NCBI RefSeq assembly: GCF_000430045.1
Contig: NZ_KE387023.1
Coordinates: forward strand, 2,506,073-2,548,497
DNA: 42,425 bases
Direction of reading: 5' to 3'
Source: Calidithermus chliarophilus DSM 9957
Lineage (GTDB): Bacteria > Deinococcota > Deinococci > Deinococcales > Thermaceae
The notes under the pieces were generated by a model that worked only from the letters and a program-made list of their open reading frames with translations, did no database searches and had not been told where the DNA came from. Positions 2,345-42,031 of the stretch are shown one piece after another; positions within the stretch are counted from its first letter, which is position 1; every line of letters starts with the position of its first letter. The position numbers and the translations under genes are program-made.

Positions 2345-3607
2345 TTACCGCAACGTCACCAGCACCCGGATCAGGCCCGTTCCCTCCCTCAGGGGCTCGA
2401 GGGCCTTGCCGATGAGGATGCCGCCGGGATAGACCGCGACGCCGCTCACCCGCACCGGCGAGGCTTTCATGGCGTGGCCGGGGGTGCTCGAGGTCGTGAG
2501 CATGTCGCCGACCTCGATGGGGCCGTTCTCGGCGCTGGCCTTGGTGGGCACGATGCCCACGATGGCTACCGGCACGTCGCTGGCGTCCACGCGGGTGATG
2601 CCGTCTCCTTTCTCCGCGCCCAGGATGCCCGGCCGGGTGGAGTACACCCCGGCCACGCGGGGGTCGTTGGGGCGGCTGGAGCGCTCGACCCGGCCTGGGG
2701 TCTGCGTGCTCAGTACCAGCACGTCTCCGGGGCTGAAATCGGCCTTGTCGCCCAGGGCGGGCAGCGCTTCGGCGAAGTCCGAGCCGGCCACGAAGGTGCC
2801 GTCCTTGTTGATGTGGCACTTCCGCGCTTGCCCCTGGGCCTCGCACTCGAGGAAGTTCCCGCTCGAGTCCTTGTGCTTGATCAGCTTCAAGACCGCGTTG
2901 GCATTGGCCGCGCTGTCGGTGCGTAAGAGCGCGGCTTCGCCGGCGGTGGTGAAGTTGTAGGCCTCCAGCCCGGCCAAGGTCGCGGGGACGCTGGTGATCC
3001 CCCGCAACACCTGGACGTTGCCCGTGCCCACCGAGAAGACCAGGTCGCGGTTGTTGACCGTCTCCAGTACGGTTTGCGTGCCCCCGACCGGCTTGACGTC
3101 GAGAAAGGCGTTCGAGCCGGACAGCAGCCGCAGGGCCGGGCTCCCCTCGCTCACCGCGACGGTGGCTTTGGCGCCGGGGCTGGCCGTGCCGATGCCCACG
3201 TTGCCCCCTGTGTCCACCCGCAGCCGTTCCACGTTGTTCGTCCTGAACACCAGGGGCTGGTTATCGGCGGTGCCCAGGAAATTGCTGGCGGGGTTGGTCC
3301 CTGCGTTGCCCGTGAGCTTCCAACCCGCGTCCCCGCCGCCGCTCACCGCCTCGCAGGTCACGCTGCCATCGGCGTTGACGACCCGGATCGCCGAACCCGC
3401 CGCGCAGGTGCCGTTCACGCGGTTTTGCTTGCCGCTCTCCAGCGCGTCCACCGCGGTCTTCAGCGCGCCGAAGTTGGCGTTGACCTCGCTGGCCTTGATG
3501 GGCGTTCCCGGGGCGAAGGTGTGGGGAAGGCTCACCGCCACCACGTATAGCCCCGAGGCGGCCAGGGCTGCTCCGAGCACGAAGTGTTTCAGGTTTCCAC
3601 CGCGCAT
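2345..3607 (-). CDS. Exported protein with phage-tail-like beta repeats
   Basis: This 420-aa protein starts with a signal-peptide-like segment (residues 5-28). An 'IKASEVNANF' motif (about 38-47) follows, of a type often found just after the signal in exported proteins with tail-fibre-like architecture. The middle has Gly/Asn-rich beta repeats, including GNVGIGTASPGAK and 'PLVFRTNNVERLRV', as in phage tail-fibre and cell-surface fibre proteins. A conserved-looking C-terminal block (about 270-420) includes SDFAEALP, 'SPGDVLVLS' and 'AGVYSTRPG'. I do not see an intramolecular chaperone (S74) domain. It sits 15 bp after the 47-aa lipoprotein gene, whose stop region supplies the GGAG ribosome site, so the two are likely translated together. 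A surface or extracellular fibre role is inferred from sequence style only. Confidence 0.82.
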   Translation of the reverse strand: MRGGNLKHFVLGAALAASGLYVVAVSLPHTFAPGTPIKASEVNANFGALKTAVDALESGKQNRVNGTCAAGSAIRVVNADGSVTCEAVSGGGDAGWKLTGNAGTNPASNFLGTADNQPLVFRTNNVERLRVDTGGNVGIGTASPGAKATVAVSEGSPALRLLSGSNAFLDVKPVGGTQTVLETVNNRDLVFSVGTGNVQVLRGITSVPATLAGLEAYNFTTAGEAALLRTDSAANANAVLKLIKHKDSSGNFLECEAQGQARKCHINKDGTFVAGSDFAEALPALGDKADFSPGDVLVLSTQTPGRVERSSRPNDPRVAGVYSTRPGILGAEKGDGITRVDASDVPVAIVGIVPTKASAENGPIEVGDMLTTSSTPGHAMKASPVRVSGVAVYPGGILIGKALEPLREGTGLIRVLVTLR

Positions 3608-14390: not shown

Positions 14391-14789
14391 CTAGCTCGAG
14401 GCCCCGGCCTTCGGCTTGGGCCCCTCGCCCGGCGGGGTGCCGCCTTTGGACTTGCGGGTCAGGCCCGACCGGCGCTCGCTCTTGCGGGTGTAGCCCATGG
14501 CCTCGTAGAGGGCGCTGTCCGGGCCTAGGGCGGCGTCGGCCAGCACCGCGGCCACGACCCGCATGCGGGCGGCGAGGGAGACCTGGTCGGCCCGGTCGCG
14601 CTCGGCCTGGGCCTCGAGCAGCTCGTTCTGGAGCTGGGCGATGCGTTCGCGGGCTGCGAAGGAAGGGGCGATGAGGGCTCTGAACTCTTCGAGGGTCATA
14701 TCGGCCAGCCTGCGCTCCGGGGCCAACTGGCTCCACGCGACCTCGGCGGCCTGGATCTTCTCCAGGGCGGATTTCGGATTACCGGCCAT
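14391..14789 (-). CDS. Hypothetical helical protein
   Basis: A 132-aa soluble, mostly helical protein that I do not recognise. Residues 1-95 are rich in Ala, Glu, Leu and Arg ('FAARERIAQLQNELLEAQAE'), compatible with a coiled coil around 43-75. The C-terminus is basic, Gly/Pro/Lys-rich and probably disordered ('RKSERRSGLTRKSKGG'). The gene is supported by a strong ribosome site, GGGAGGTG, 4 nt before ATG and by codon use like that of its neighbours. It is transcribed away from the 21-bp repeat array. Confidence 0.75.
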   Translation of the reverse strand: MAGNPKSALEKIQAAEVAWSQLAPERRLADMTLEEFRALIAPSFAARERIAQLQNELLEAQAERDRADQVSLAARMRVVAAVLADAALGPDSALYEAMGYTRKSERRSGLTRKSKGGTPPGEGPKPKAGASS

Positions 14790-14906
14790 TCAACACCTCC
14801 CTCACGGGTATGCCCTGTGCGGGCGGGCATCATAATTGCGCTTTGATTCCAAAAATGTCAAGGTGGACCCCGTCCAGTCGCCCTCATCCGGTGGCTTGCC
14901 GGCCCT

Positions 14907-15116
14907 TTAGGCTCGACAGGAAGAAAACTCCTGCGCCGGAGAAGCCTTTTCTCCTTCGTGGGGGAAAGTCTCTTAGGAGGAAGAGACTAATTCCGCTTAA
15001 CAAGAAAAGAATTCTTACGCGCAGGAAGGGTATTCCCCCGGACAGGAGCATAAGTCCGGCGCATAGGATGAGCACTCTCCTGCGGGAGAAAGCCCTTCTC
15101 CCGCACGGGAAAACCC
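14907..15116. repeat. Degenerate tandem array, ten 21-bp units
   Basis: Ten consecutive 21-bp units run without any insertion or deletion: 14907, 14928, 14949, 14970, 14991, 15012, 15033, 15054, 15075 and 15096. Aligned by eye, position 2 is T in 10/10 and position 14 is G in 10/10. Position 3 is C in 9/10 and position 15 is A in 9/10. Positions 12 and 13 are purines in 10/10, and position 16 is a purine in 9/10. The other positions vary freely. Many units are imperfect dyads of the form TTCTCC..GGAGAA, so hairpins fold within and across units (for example 14968-14989 and 15081-15104). The flanking units are degraded beyond recognition. Confidence 0.85.
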
Positions 15117-15315
15117 TTCCTCTCGAGCCGCGCTGGTCAGGGCCGGGCCTCACCCGGCCAACGGGGCAACGCCCCATGGCGCTCTGCCGGGGGTGGCCCA
15201 TCGCTATAGGTGCCGGGGCGCTCGAGCGCGCCCCGGGAAGAGCCGGACGCTCGAGGGGCCGCCCCTGCGCCTCGGTCCCCGTGCCGCGGCACGGCCCCAA
15301 CCCCCTCCGCCCGCC

Positions 15316-15356
15316 TGACCCCTGATGACAATTCCCTGACACAAGCCGAGCAGTCT
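15316..15356. promoter_or_regulatory. Pho-box-like direct repeats and possible pstS promoter
   Basis: TGACC (15316), TGACA (15326) and TGACA (15337) form direct repeats 10 and 11 bp apart; read on the other strand these are TGTCA half-sites, the same half-site and spacing as the E. coli Pho box. A weak -10-like CAGTCT (15351-15356) follows at the distance expected when PhoB replaces the -35. This fits phosphate-starvation control of pstSCAB. Confidence 0.5.
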
Positions 15357-15377: not shown

Positions 15378-16424
15378 ATGAAACGAGCACTCGTTGCCGC
15401 CGCCGCCCTGCTGGGGCTGGCCTCGGCCCAGGTGACCCTGACCGGGGCCGGGGCCACCTTTCCCGCCCCGCTCTACACCGAGAAGTACATCCCCACCTTC
15501 TCCAAGCTCGCCAACGTCAAGATCAACTACCAGGCGGTGGGCTCGGGGGGCGGGCAGCGCCAGCTTCTGGACAAGGTGGTGCAGTTCGCCGGTTCGGACG
15601 CCCCCCTCACCGACGCCCAGATGAAGGAGTACCAGGACAAGACCGGCAGCGCCGTGCTGCACATCCCCGCCGCCCTGGGGCCGGTCGCCATCACCTACAA
15701 CCTGCCCGGCGTCAACGAGCTGCGCCTCGACGCCGACACCCTCGCCGCCATCTACCTGGGCAAGATCGTGCGCTGGAACGACCCCCGCATCGCCGCGCTC
15801 AACCCCGGCGTCAACCTGCCGCGCCAGGTGATCTCCGCCGTGCACCGCTCGGACGGCTCGGGCACGACCTACATCTTCACCGCCTACCTCTCGGCCATCT
15901 CCGCCGAGTGGAAGAGCAAGGTGGGGCAGGGCACCGCCGTCAACTGGCCGGCCTTCAGCAGCCTCGCCAACCGCGGCAACGCCGGCGTGGCGGGCCTGGT
16001 GCAGAAGTCGCCGGGGGCGGTGGGCTACGTCGAGCTGGCCTACGCGCTCGAGAACAACCTCCCCATCGCCAGCGTCAAGAACGCCGCCGGCAACTTCGTC
16101 AAGCCCAGCCTGGCCAGCGCCAAGGAGGCCGCCGAGGGCGTGGACCTGCCCAAGGACCTGCGCCTGGTCAACCAGGTGGTCAACACCAAGGACCCCGCCG
16201 GCTACCCCATCGTGGGCATGACCTGGCTGCTGGTCTTCCAGAAGCAGGAGGTCACCGCCAAGAGCCGCGAGCAGGCCAAGGCCGTCGTGGACTTCCTCAA
16301 CTGGGTCATCACCGACGGGCAGGAGCTCAACGAGTCGCTCAAGTACGTGCGCCTCTCGCCCAAGGTGGTCAACCAGGCCAAGGCCCTCATCGCCACCATC
16401 ACCTACAACGGCCAGAAGCTCTGA
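15378..16424 (+). CDS. pstS: Phosphate ABC transporter substrate-binding protein
   Basis: A 348-aa secreted binding protein that captures phosphate and delivers it to PstCA. The signal peptide is residues 1-18, with cleavage after ASA; there is no lipobox. Family motifs are 'LTGAGATFPAPLY' (20-32), the phosphate-contacting 'VGSGGGQRQLL', 'FAGSDAPL', 'VHRSDGSGTTYIFTAYL' and 'GAVGYVELAYAL'. The ATG at 15378 follows GGAGGT by 7 nt and begins exactly at the signal peptide. It is the first gene of pstSCAB; the structured gap after it may allow higher expression than the membrane genes. phoU is not in this cluster. Confidence 0.96.
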   Translation: MKRALVAAAALLGLASAQVTLTGAGATFPAPLYTEKYIPTFSKLANVKINYQAVGSGGGQRQLLDKVVQFAGSDAPLTDAQMKEYQDKTGSAVLHIPAALGPVAITYNLPGVNELRLDADTLAAIYLGKIVRWNDPRIAALNPGVNLPRQVISAVHRSDGSGTTYIFTAYLSAISAEWKSKVGQGTAVNWPAFSSLANRGNAGVAGLVQKSPGAVGYVELAYALENNLPIASVKNAAGNFVKPSLASAKEAAEGVDLPKDLRLVNQVVNTKDPAGYPIVGMTWLLVFQKQEVTAKSREQAKAVVDFLNWVITDGQELNESLKYVRLSPKVVNQAKALIATITYNGQKL

Positions 16425-19203: not shown

Positions 19204-19252
19204 GTCGTACGTCGTACGCCGAACGCAAAACGCAAAACGCAAAACGCAAAAC
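19204..19252 (+). repeat. Heptanucleotide array A
   Basis: Seven consecutive 7-bp units in register: GTCGTAC twice, GCCGAAC once, GCAAAAC four times. The units drift from one version to the next. It is placed between the pstB stop and the promoter of the next gene. Confidence 0.85.
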
Positions 19253-19255
19253 GCC

Positions 19256-19825: not shown

Positions 19826-20051
19826 GTCGATAGTCGATGGTCGATAGCCGATAGCTGATAGCTAAACGCCGGGCGCGGGTCGTACGTCCTACGTCGTACG
19901 TCGTACGCCAAACGCCAGACGCGAGACGCCAGACGCCTTGTTCCCCTTTAGCAAGGGGGGTTGGGGGGATAGCCCCTCCCCGCGTGCGGGGAGGGAAGGG
20001 GTGGGGTCAACCACGAGCCTTTCGCTGATAGCTGATAGCTGATGGCTTACA
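19826..20051 (+). repeat. Composite element: heptamer array B, hairpin element C, heptamer array
   Basis: Sixteen 7-bp units in exact register (19826-19937) run GTCGATA, GTCGATG, GCCGATA, GCTGATA through GTACGTC to AGACGCC. Then comes an approximately 80-bp element (about 19941-20019) with the perfect hairpin CCCTCCCCGC-gt-GCGGGGAGGG (19974-19995). Further heptamers GCTGATA, GCTGATA, GCTGATG and GCTTACA (20024-20051) run across the stop codon of glcF (20047-20049). A second copy is at 25317-25533. Confidence 0.8.
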
Positions 20052-21309
20052 GCTTTCCCTGGTACGCCAGGTCCAGAATCTCGACCGTGTGGTACATCGG
20101 GATCTCGTGCCCCAGCTTGCGCAGGTGGCTCTGAATTTGGGTGAAGCAGCCGATGTTGCCGGTGGCGATGGCCTGGGCGCCGGTGGCGAGGATGTTGCGG
20201 GCCTTGCGTTCGCCCAGCGTGGCGGCGATGGCGGGCTGCTCGAGGTTATAGGTCCCGGCGCTGCCGCAGCACAGTTCGCCTTCGGGGATCTCGAGCAGCT
20301 CGAGGCCCCCCACCGAGCGCAGCAGCTTGCGCGGCTCGGAGCGCACCTGCTGGGCGTGAGCGAGGTGGCAGGCGTCGTGGTAGGCCACCTTGAGGGGCTG
20401 CTTGAGGGCGGGGGGCTCGAGCAAGCCCAGGTTGGCGAGGAAGACCGACACGTCCTGCACGCGCTTGCTAAAGGCTTCGGCGGCCGGGTGCTCGGGCTCG
20501 CCCACGAAGAGCAGGCCGTACTCCTTGAGCCCCGAGCCGCACCCGGCGGCGTTGGAGAGGATGGCGTCCACGTCGGCGGGGAAGGCCTCCAGGTTCTGCC
20601 GGGCGAGGCCGATGGCGCGGCTGCGCTCGCCGGTGTGCAGGGCGGCGGCCCCGCAGCAGGCCTGGCCCCTGGGGATGAGCACCTCCACGCCGTTCTCGGC
20701 CAGCACCCGCAGGGTGGCCCAGTTGAAGTTGGGCTTGAGCACCTGCTGGGCGCACCCGGTCAGCAGCGCGACGCGGGCGCGGCGGGGGCCCTTGGCGGGG
20801 AAGAACTCGGGCAGGGGAGGGGCGGGCTCGAGGCGGTCGGGGAGGAGCTCGAGCGGCGCTTGCAGGGCCTTGGGGAGCAGCGGCTTGAAGACCTTGCCGA
20901 TCTTGCCGAGCTGGGCGGCGGCGCGGAAGCGCTGGGGGTAGGGCAGCAGCTCCATGACGCCCAGGCGGAAGGCCTTCTGGAAGGGCGAGCGGTGGCGGCG
21001 GGGCTCGGCCCAGCCCCGGTAGGTGCTGACGAGCTCGCCGTAGGGCACGCCGGAGGGGCAGGCCGAGACGCAGCCCAAGCAGCCGAGGCACTTGTCGATG
21101 TAGGGGGCGGCGTCCTCAGGGTTCAGGTTGCCCTCGAGCACCTCCTTCATCAGGAAGATGCGCCCGCGGGGGCTGTCCATCTCCTCGCCCAGCACCTGAT
21201 AGGTGGGGCAGGCGGGCAGGCAGAAGCCGCAGTGGACGCAGGCCTCGACGGCGTGGGCCATCACCTCGCCCTGCGGGCCGATGGATTGGGTGTCGATCTT
21301 GTGCTGCAT
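20047..21309 (-). CDS. glcF: Glycolate oxidase iron-sulfur subunit
   Basis: A 420-aa electron-transfer subunit of glycolate oxidase. Two [4Fe-4S] ferredoxin motifs are present: [12 protein letters not shown] (about 23-34) and [12 protein letters not shown] (about 74-85). Two CCG-type cysteine-rich domains follow ('[14 protein letters not shown]'; 'DACHLAHAQ' and '[12 protein letters not shown]'), as in GlcF, LutA and heterodisulfide reductase. It passes electrons from GlcD/GlcE towards the quinone pool. The ATG at 21309 is 5 bp after the glcE stop; the longer open frame upstream overlaps glcE and is not used. The last codons lie in a heptamer array. Confidence 0.94.
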
Positions 21310-25316: not shown

Positions 25317-25533
25317 GTCGATAGTCGATAGCTGGGCGCGGGTCGTACGTCCTGCGCCCGGCGTCGTACGCAAGACGCCAAACGCAAAACGCCAAACGCA
25401 AGACGCGAAACGCCCTTTCTTTACCCCCCTTAACAAGGGGGGCAGGGGGGGATAAACCCTCCCCGCGTGCGGGGAGGGTTGGGAGGGGTAAACCACGGGC
25501 TACAAGCTGACCGCTGACGGCTGATGGCTGAAA
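25317..25533 (+). repeat. Composite element, copy 2 (heptamers, element C, heptamers)
   Basis: Fourteen in-register heptamers (25317-25414) run from GTCGATA through GCTGGGC, GCGGGTC and GTACGTC to AAACGCC. Element C copy 2 follows (about 25424-25498), with the same CCCTCCCCGC-gt-GCGGGGAGGG hairpin (25457-25478). Then come GCTACAA, GCTGACC, GCTGACG, GCTGATG and GCTGAAA (25499-25533). It fills almost the whole gap between the BON-LysM and DUF58 genes and has the same order of parts as the copy at 19826-20051. Confidence 0.8.
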
Positions 25534-37111: not shown

Positions 37112-37171
37112 GCGCCTACTTTACCGGCCGGGCGGCCGGGTTTGATGACGGTCGGCGGCGTGGTGTGGTTC

Positions 37172-37234
37172 GCCGAACGCCTAACGCCTAACGCCTAACG
37201 CCGAACGCCGAACGCCTAACGCCGAACGCCGAAC
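37172..37234 (+). repeat. Heptanucleotide array D
   Basis: Nine in-register units alternate between GCCGAAC and GCCTAAC with no other variant. The last unit runs directly into element E (TAACCCGACCGAAGGG). Confidence 0.85.
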
Positions 37235-40703: not shown

Positions 40704-40762
40704 GCCGATAGCCCATAGCCGATAGTCGATAGCCAAAGGGCTATTAGCTATCGGCTATCAGC
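40704..40762 (+). repeat. Inverted heptamer arrays between sdhA and sdhB
   Basis: GCCGATA, GCCCATA, GCCGATA, GTCGATA and GCCAAAG (40704-40738) face a complementary set ending GCTATCGGCTATCAGC (40739-40762). Together they can fold into one hairpin in the operon mRNA, ending 13 nt before the sdhB ATG and just before its GGAGG ribosome site. Confidence 0.75.
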
Positions 40763-41982: not shown

Positions 41983-42031
41983 GCGTTTTGCGTTTTGCGT
42001 TCGGCTATCGGCGTTCGGCTACCGGCGCATC
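41983..42031 (+). repeat. Heptanucleotide array G
   Basis: Seven in-register units (GCGTTTT twice, GCGTTCG, GCTATCG, GCGTTCG, GCTACCG, GCGCATC) are the reverse-complement form of the AAAACGC/CGAACGC family. The last unit overlaps the stop codon (42030-42032) of the Roadblock gene. Confidence 0.8.

Follow-up and report, generated by a model that had tools for sequence, protein, structure and literature searches.

Known systems of phased repeats

Phased tandem sites lying upstream of the gene of their binder, around its promoter, are known from ParR/parC, from iteron-type centromeres and from the Rep iterons of plasmid origins. In type III toxin-antitoxin systems (ToxIN), a tandem repeat array is likewise found directly upstream of a small protein gene. 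The closest working analogy to the locus described here is that of StbA and the stbDRs of plasmid R388, two sets of five 9-bp tandem repeats with 2-bp spacers, one turn apart and bound by StbA, whose neighbouring ATPase StbB is dispensable for plasmid stability (PMC3098194). In both cases, with no claim of family membership, the repeats lie around the promoter of a small gene and stay in helical register, the product of that gene being the binder in R388. A further likeness is offered by BldC, a small protein that binds direct repeats as cooperative multimers (PMC5859096), the filament on DNA repeats at promoters being a feature of BldC.

Here we describe an array of 21-bp tandem units and its partner gene within a window of 42,425 nucleotides (the whole stretch of DNA analysed) from the genome of Calidithermus chliarophilus DSM 9957, a member of the Deinococcota. 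A period of 21 bp corresponds to two turns of B-DNA. As in partition and segregation modules, tandem cis repeats stand near the promoter of a protein gene, in helical register. In contrast with StbA and the stbDRs, however, the period is of two turns rather than one, the units are dyads, their sequence is specific to each locus, and the protein, whose binding to the array is only predicted, is unrelated to any known family; moreover, most of the homologous loci examined do not reside on plasmids, and up to nine homologous matches occur in a single genome. Phased tandem sites upstream of a gene and around its promoter are also what this module shares with ParR/parC and iterons, with a binder that we infer here, but no ParM or ParA motor and no Rep gene lies beside it in the window, and divergence among the units of a single array is far greater than iterons usually show. 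BldC is a MerR-like protein with sites of variable length, whereas the protein of this locus is predicted to be a long helix with tails and its putative sites measure strictly 21 bp. Unlike in ToxIN, there is no strand-specific RNA folding, a promoter follows the array, and the protein shows no ribonuclease-like fold. A search of the open literature, whose coverage leaves out most subscription journals and preprints, gave no description of such arrays, and no known system came to our notice in which the array period is conserved and the sequence replaced beside an unannotated gene family.

The array of the window and its partner gene

The array spans positions 14907-15116, with ten units that start at 14907, 14928 and so on up to 15096 in a strict 21-bp register; in the sense of the small gene that follows it on the minus strand, it runs from 15116 to 14907. 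An exact period over 210 bp had been proposed from a sequence-only reading and is fully borne out, with a mean column identity score of 0.463 against 0.251 +/- 0.014 in 2000 dinucleotide shuffles (z ~15.7), so that shuffles of the same composition do not reach the column conservation of the array. The maximum z in 500 shuffles was 4.6 for periods 10-42, and across the 42-kb window the period of this array is the strongest among periods 10-40. The conserved skeleton claimed in the same reading also holds for the nine well-conserved units at 14928-15116, the unit at 14907 being degenerate: T2, C3 and G14 are invariant in all nine, A15 occurs in eight (with one G), only pyrimidines occur at position 4 and only purines at 12-13, and position 16 is a purine in 8/9. 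Written as TCY-N7-RRGA, the pattern shows a single mismatch among 63 fixed positions over nine successive units, and even its three-unit version is expected only 0.08 times when the entire window is shuffled. The unit has dyad symmetry, TCYNNNGCNNNRGA, about an axis that falls between positions 8 and 9 (column-order permutation p < 0.001), in agreement with the dyads noted earlier. The lower local GC content of the same reading is likewise found, at ~53% against 70-79% on the flanks.

TRF at a score of 30 misses this array because its units are too diverged. No homologue of its DNA was found by BLAST in the family, in plasmids or in phages, as its sequence turnover would predict, and a five-unit pattern search in 111 genomes returned the window locus only, together with two matches in another genome (G101) that resemble coding heptads. 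The array is closed by a perfect inverted repeat, with the left arm GGCTCGA at 14910-14916 and the right arm TCGAGCC at 15123-15129, and a second one, CCGGCCCT/AGGGCCGG, lies at 14899-14906 and 15139-15146, both being placed symmetrically at the array ends. The layout of a CRISPR array, in which unique spacers separate conserved repeats, is not seen, since the 21-bp units are contiguous and have no spacers. Many short heptanucleotide tandem repeats (units AACGCAA, GTCGATA, ACGCCAG, GCTGATA and CGCCGAA) occur elsewhere in the window, at 19222-19254, 19826-19937, 20024-20054, 25317-25531, 37171-37234, 40704-40762 and 41983-42027, mostly outside obvious genes, and also in the region of a paralogue (L108), near 3416, 6431 and 12463; the genome is apparently rich in 7-bp repeats, which are unrelated in sequence to the 21-bp array.

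The partner gene (14391-14789, minus strand) encodes a helical protein of 132 residues without any known domain, which ends in the basic tail RKSERRSGLTRK. It is preceded by a sigma-70-like promoter at 14832-14861 (TTGACA at 14861-14856, an 18-nt spacer and AATTAT at 14837-14832) and by a ribosome-binding site read from the sequence, AGGGAGGTG, at 14794-14802, both on the minus strand, so that the order in the sense of the gene is array, promoter, ribosome site and coding sequence. The protein has no match at a useful level in Pfam, NCBIfam or PHROGs, no fold match in the PDB at E 0.001, no recognised DNA-binding motif, and no known partition DNA-binding family by Pfam, NCBIfam, PDB or fold. 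An AlphaFold2 model built with 14 homologues (mean pLDDT 86) predicts helices at residues 5-22 and 33-84, followed by a basic tail of low confidence, and the second helix, of 52 residues, has a pLDDT above 90. The N-terminus is usually positive, the helix negative and the tail positive, and the conserved part of the protein is the C-terminal tail, not the N-terminus. The protein is probably a dimeric coiled coil with basic ends. A helix of 52 residues would measure ~78 angstrom against 71 angstrom for 21 bp, a closeness in length to be taken as a suggestive coincidence at most.

On its other side, the array neighbours pstS (15378-16424, plus strand), and the sequence-only reading had taken it for an element of this gene. 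With the PstS protein as query, 24 further pstS upstream regions were retrieved in the family. The closest orthologues, at 73-74% identity, have no array, and their short intergenic regions carry TGACAATCCCCTGACA or a near variant, the same element that is found in the window at 15326-15341 (plus strand) as the Pho-box-like direct repeat TGACAATTCCCTGACA. The TGACA-N6-TGACA form of this repeat is kept before pstS in L073, L082 and, as a near variant, L074. The array thus neighbours pstS but does not regulate it, both pstS and the Pho-box-like repeat lying outside the module, and the array belongs 5' of the divergent minus-strand gene. The array itself can be ruled out as a Pho box, because it is absent upstream of the pstS orthologues; it shares with the Pho box its position before pstS and a build of tandem direct repeats, those of the Pho box being of one turn, but the Pho-box-like site is kept where the array is missing. 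That related strains might lack the period, which had been named as grounds for doubt, is therefore true of pstS and false of the divergent partner gene.

Homologous loci and the turnover of their repeats

Among 111 Deinococcota genomes, a direct search found the partner protein in this genome only, where it occurs in two copies, the 110 others being without it, and a profile search added one weak and partial match. Because it is absent from the relatives, the module of gene and array was apparently acquired horizontally, a conclusion drawn from this distribution. The second copy (W2; L108:5474-5869) is 43% identical and 462 kb away. When its surroundings were scanned without prior expectation, a period of 21 again came out strongest, with a score of 0.72, right next to the gene on its upstream side; the array comprises ten CATCCCCAAAGCCTGGGGATG-type units, after which TTGACA and TATA-like elements follow. 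A profile of both proteins led to two Chloroflexota homologues, each with an upstream 21-bp array, and profiles of 4 and then 14 proteins were used to gather further ones. Arrays of this period occur in the window (W1), at W2, and at L109, L110, L113-L116, L118, L120, L121, L123 and L129, plus 22 further loci; at L115, an 8-bp repeat further out scores slightly above the 21-bp array. Two homologues found by protein search on cyanobacterial plasmids of 1.0-1.2 Mb also have one, with scores of 0.56 in Kovacikia and 0.94 in Nostoc, the unit of the latter being GATGCATTCATAATGCAAGCC.

Altogether, a 21-bp array lies directly 5' of the gene at 37 loci from three phyla (Deinococcota, Chloroflexota and, on plasmids, Cyanobacteria), a count that takes in all homologues with available upstream DNA and a match extending to the N-terminus. 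Weak or fragmentary matches (L117, L119, L122, L124-L128, L148, L149 and L151), most of which are without the gene start, show no array of their own. As controls, a score of 0.5 at period 21 is reached in none of 68 windows taken from the ends of the same loci, and among the 24 pstS upstream regions 21 is the best period in only one, with 0.449 as the highest lag-21 score. Relatives were found neither in viral contigs nor in phages, nor in 276 Actinomycetota genomes. Some Chloroflexota genomes (G586, G955 and G915) have five to nine matches to the small protein each; those of G586 include L113, L120 and L123-L129, and its contig C964 holds three truncated or tandem matches at which no array was seen.

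What is kept among these loci is the spacing. All 29 extracted arrays score best at a lag of exactly 21, lags 20 and 22 staying close to background, and in most of them the score at lag 42 equals or exceeds that at lag 21, as does lag 84 in some, which indicates that arrays grow by duplication of segments. Unit sequences are unrelated between loci, and they turn over faster than leader and protein. The W1 and W2 arrays of the same genome show no similarity (z -0.2); in the pair L144/L157, with leaders 88% and proteins 85% identical, array similarity has a z of ~0.5, and in L138/L154, with a leader identity of 73%, it is 0.0. Similar arrays are found in the pairs L144/L146 and L110/L133. Among the 13 arrays tested for dyad symmetry of the unit, eight exceed column-permuted controls (p <= 0.007), the symmetry of L110, L118, L121 and L123 not being significant. 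At L114 and L121, single units are inverted (ACCTC/GAGGT and TCCTCC/AGGAG, respectively) with the 21-bp phase intact, as would be expected if a symmetric dimer reads the array. Gene and array thus form a module with a constant period of 21 bp, frequent dyads and a fast turnover of sequence in three phyla.

The promoter layout of the window is also that of the paralogue and of at least ten Chloroflexota loci. Counting all loci, at least a dozen have a promoter in the interval from array to gene, with no comparable consensus upstream of the array, and about ten (L120, L132, L134, L144, L146, L147, L153, L157, L158 and others) have no clear promoter in this interval. Directly behind the promoter or the array, hairpins are conserved in the 5' leaders of the small genes, CTGGGGGTGTGCCCCAG and CAGGTGGGAAAACCGCCTG, in L135, L137, L138, L140, L154 and L155, and in L144, L146 and L157; they are possibly stabilisers of the mRNA.

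What may read the array

The sites would most likely be bound by the product of the partner gene itself, although the binder could be a different host protein. Some indication comes from a regression, over 26 loci of three subfamilies, of array similarity on three identities: that of the protein's first 16 alignment columns, that of its remainder and that of the 60-bp leader. The N-terminal 16 residues gave a beta of 0.41 (permutation p 0.0045), against 0.08 (p 0.33) for the rest of the protein and 0.21 (p 0.055) for the leader, figures to be read knowing that the 16-column span was picked after seeing L144/L157 and that the statistics carry no correction for phylogeny. As the leader sits between array and gene, linkage alone would predict a stronger effect of the leader than of the N-terminus, so the result favours a reading of the array by the N-terminal arm of the gene's own product, to be taken as suggestive only. 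Alternatively, a host transcription factor or nucleoid protein might occupy the array, which would then serve as an upstream activating region and drive very strong expression of the small gene, whose own product would not be a binder. Such a role would fit the many loci where the array is directly followed by a near-consensus promoter (TTGACA-17-TGCATACT), a 5' hairpin and a strong ribosome site. We nevertheless find it rather unlikely: a shared factor would not tolerate units that differ wholly between loci, even between W1 and W2, array similarity follows the partner's own N-terminus, and relative to the -35 box the dyad axis shows no constant helical phase (Rayleigh p 0.70), which also argues against a rigid contact with RNA polymerase.

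That the array acts as RNA, in the form of a transcript of tandem hairpins such as an RNA antitoxin or a sponge for the small protein, of the type III toxin-antitoxin kind, seems to us improbable. The window array and several others do fold far better than shuffles (z ~-4.9), pairing shows a weak covariation (combined z 2.7), and some loci have no promoter between array and gene. But the two strands fold equally well, as double-stranded DNA sites should, with sense-antisense z values over 29 arrays of -0.99 by column permutation and -0.28 by order permutation; L110, L113, L118, L134, L135, L144 and L155 fold no better, or hardly better, than controls; G-U cells are not enriched in the covariation test; no Rfam covariance model matches; and, besides the position of the promoter after the array at many loci, there is no evident reason in RNA for a fixed period of 21 nt. 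Within the units of the window array, compensatory changes do not exceed chance (43 paired cells against 43.7 expected). A structured RNA, one of the options of the sequence-only reading, is therefore not supported as a general case. Its proposal of bent DNA fares worse, and we hold it to be highly improbable that intrinsic curvature, with the bends of 21-bp units adding up over two turns, accounts for the arrays: seven of them are predicted to be strongly curved (L110, L114, L116, L121, L133, L138 and L154), but most are predicted straight, including that of the window (end-to-end ratio 0.98), and predicted curvature, obtained with a set of wedge parameters, does not exceed that of column-permuted arrays (combined p 0.59). 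A coding function can practically be discarded. Heptapeptide repeats had been considered; 21 nucleotides do make seven codons, and frames are indeed open in some arrays (the plus strand of the window and W2), yet at L114, L118 and L120 each of the six frames is interrupted by stops, and in the window the invariant T2 and G14 occupy the third position of codons in the frames that are open. With coding, RNA structure and curvature unsupported, double-stranded DNA sites two turns apart remain. Finally, these repeats might be neutral minisatellites, copy-number-variable, bound by nothing and placed by chance, for which super-periods of 42 and 84 bp and the nearly perfect recent copies of L135, L136 and L138 would speak as marks of expansion by segment duplication; we judge this very unlikely, as neutral arrays would vary in period, whereas a period of 21 is shared by 37 loci of unrelated sequence, indels seldom occur, and invariant dyad positions persist in the oldest arrays.

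Of the functions initially envisaged, a phased array of dyad binding sites is the best supported, by its period of always 21 bp, its mostly dyadic units, its strand symmetry and its tracking of the N-terminus, once its link to pstS is given up. In the reading that we prefer, the array would be the cis half of a two-part module and the gene at 14391-14789 the other half. Dyad sites exactly two B-DNA turns apart would all face one side of the helix, just upstream of the promoter; the partner protein would bind its own array through the N-terminal arm and then spread or oligomerise along this face; and the resulting nucleoprotein patch would control its own promoter and perhaps organise or mark the locus, like plasmid centromere repeats or iterons. 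The sites, copied and homogenised within each locus, could drift fast in sequence while the geometry of the protein holds their spacing. Several observations weigh against it: the protein shows no recognised DNA-binding motif and is conserved in its C-terminal tail and not at the N-terminus, the dyads are not in phase with the -35 box, about ten loci are without a clear promoter after the array, and four arrays give no significant dyad symmetry. To this reading as a whole, in which phased dyad sites are bound by their own oligomerising protein, we give an even chance. We also put forward, more tentatively and with the balance somewhat against it, that these loci represent an undescribed class in which a satellite-like array serves as the nucleation site of an abundant small coiled-coil protein, the two-turn period being kept across phyla while the sequence is rapidly replaced, so that each paralogue would co-evolve with its private array.

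If the proposed mechanism is true, the module works like the known repeat-binding systems. An orphan gene family is now tied to a DNA signature at every usable homologue in three phyla, and a 21-bp period upstream of a gene for a protein with a KSERK tail provides a search rule for more members. Conservation of helical spacing without that of sequence is unusual for protein sites, and predicts that geometry is recognised first, with a sequence private to each locus. If the protein does bind the array, these loci would offer many natural protein-array pairs in which to study the co-evolution of DNA specificity and its sites, and, should the wider proposal of a satellite-like class be true, they would be a prokaryotic equivalent of rapidly evolving centromere satellites with the proteins that bind them.
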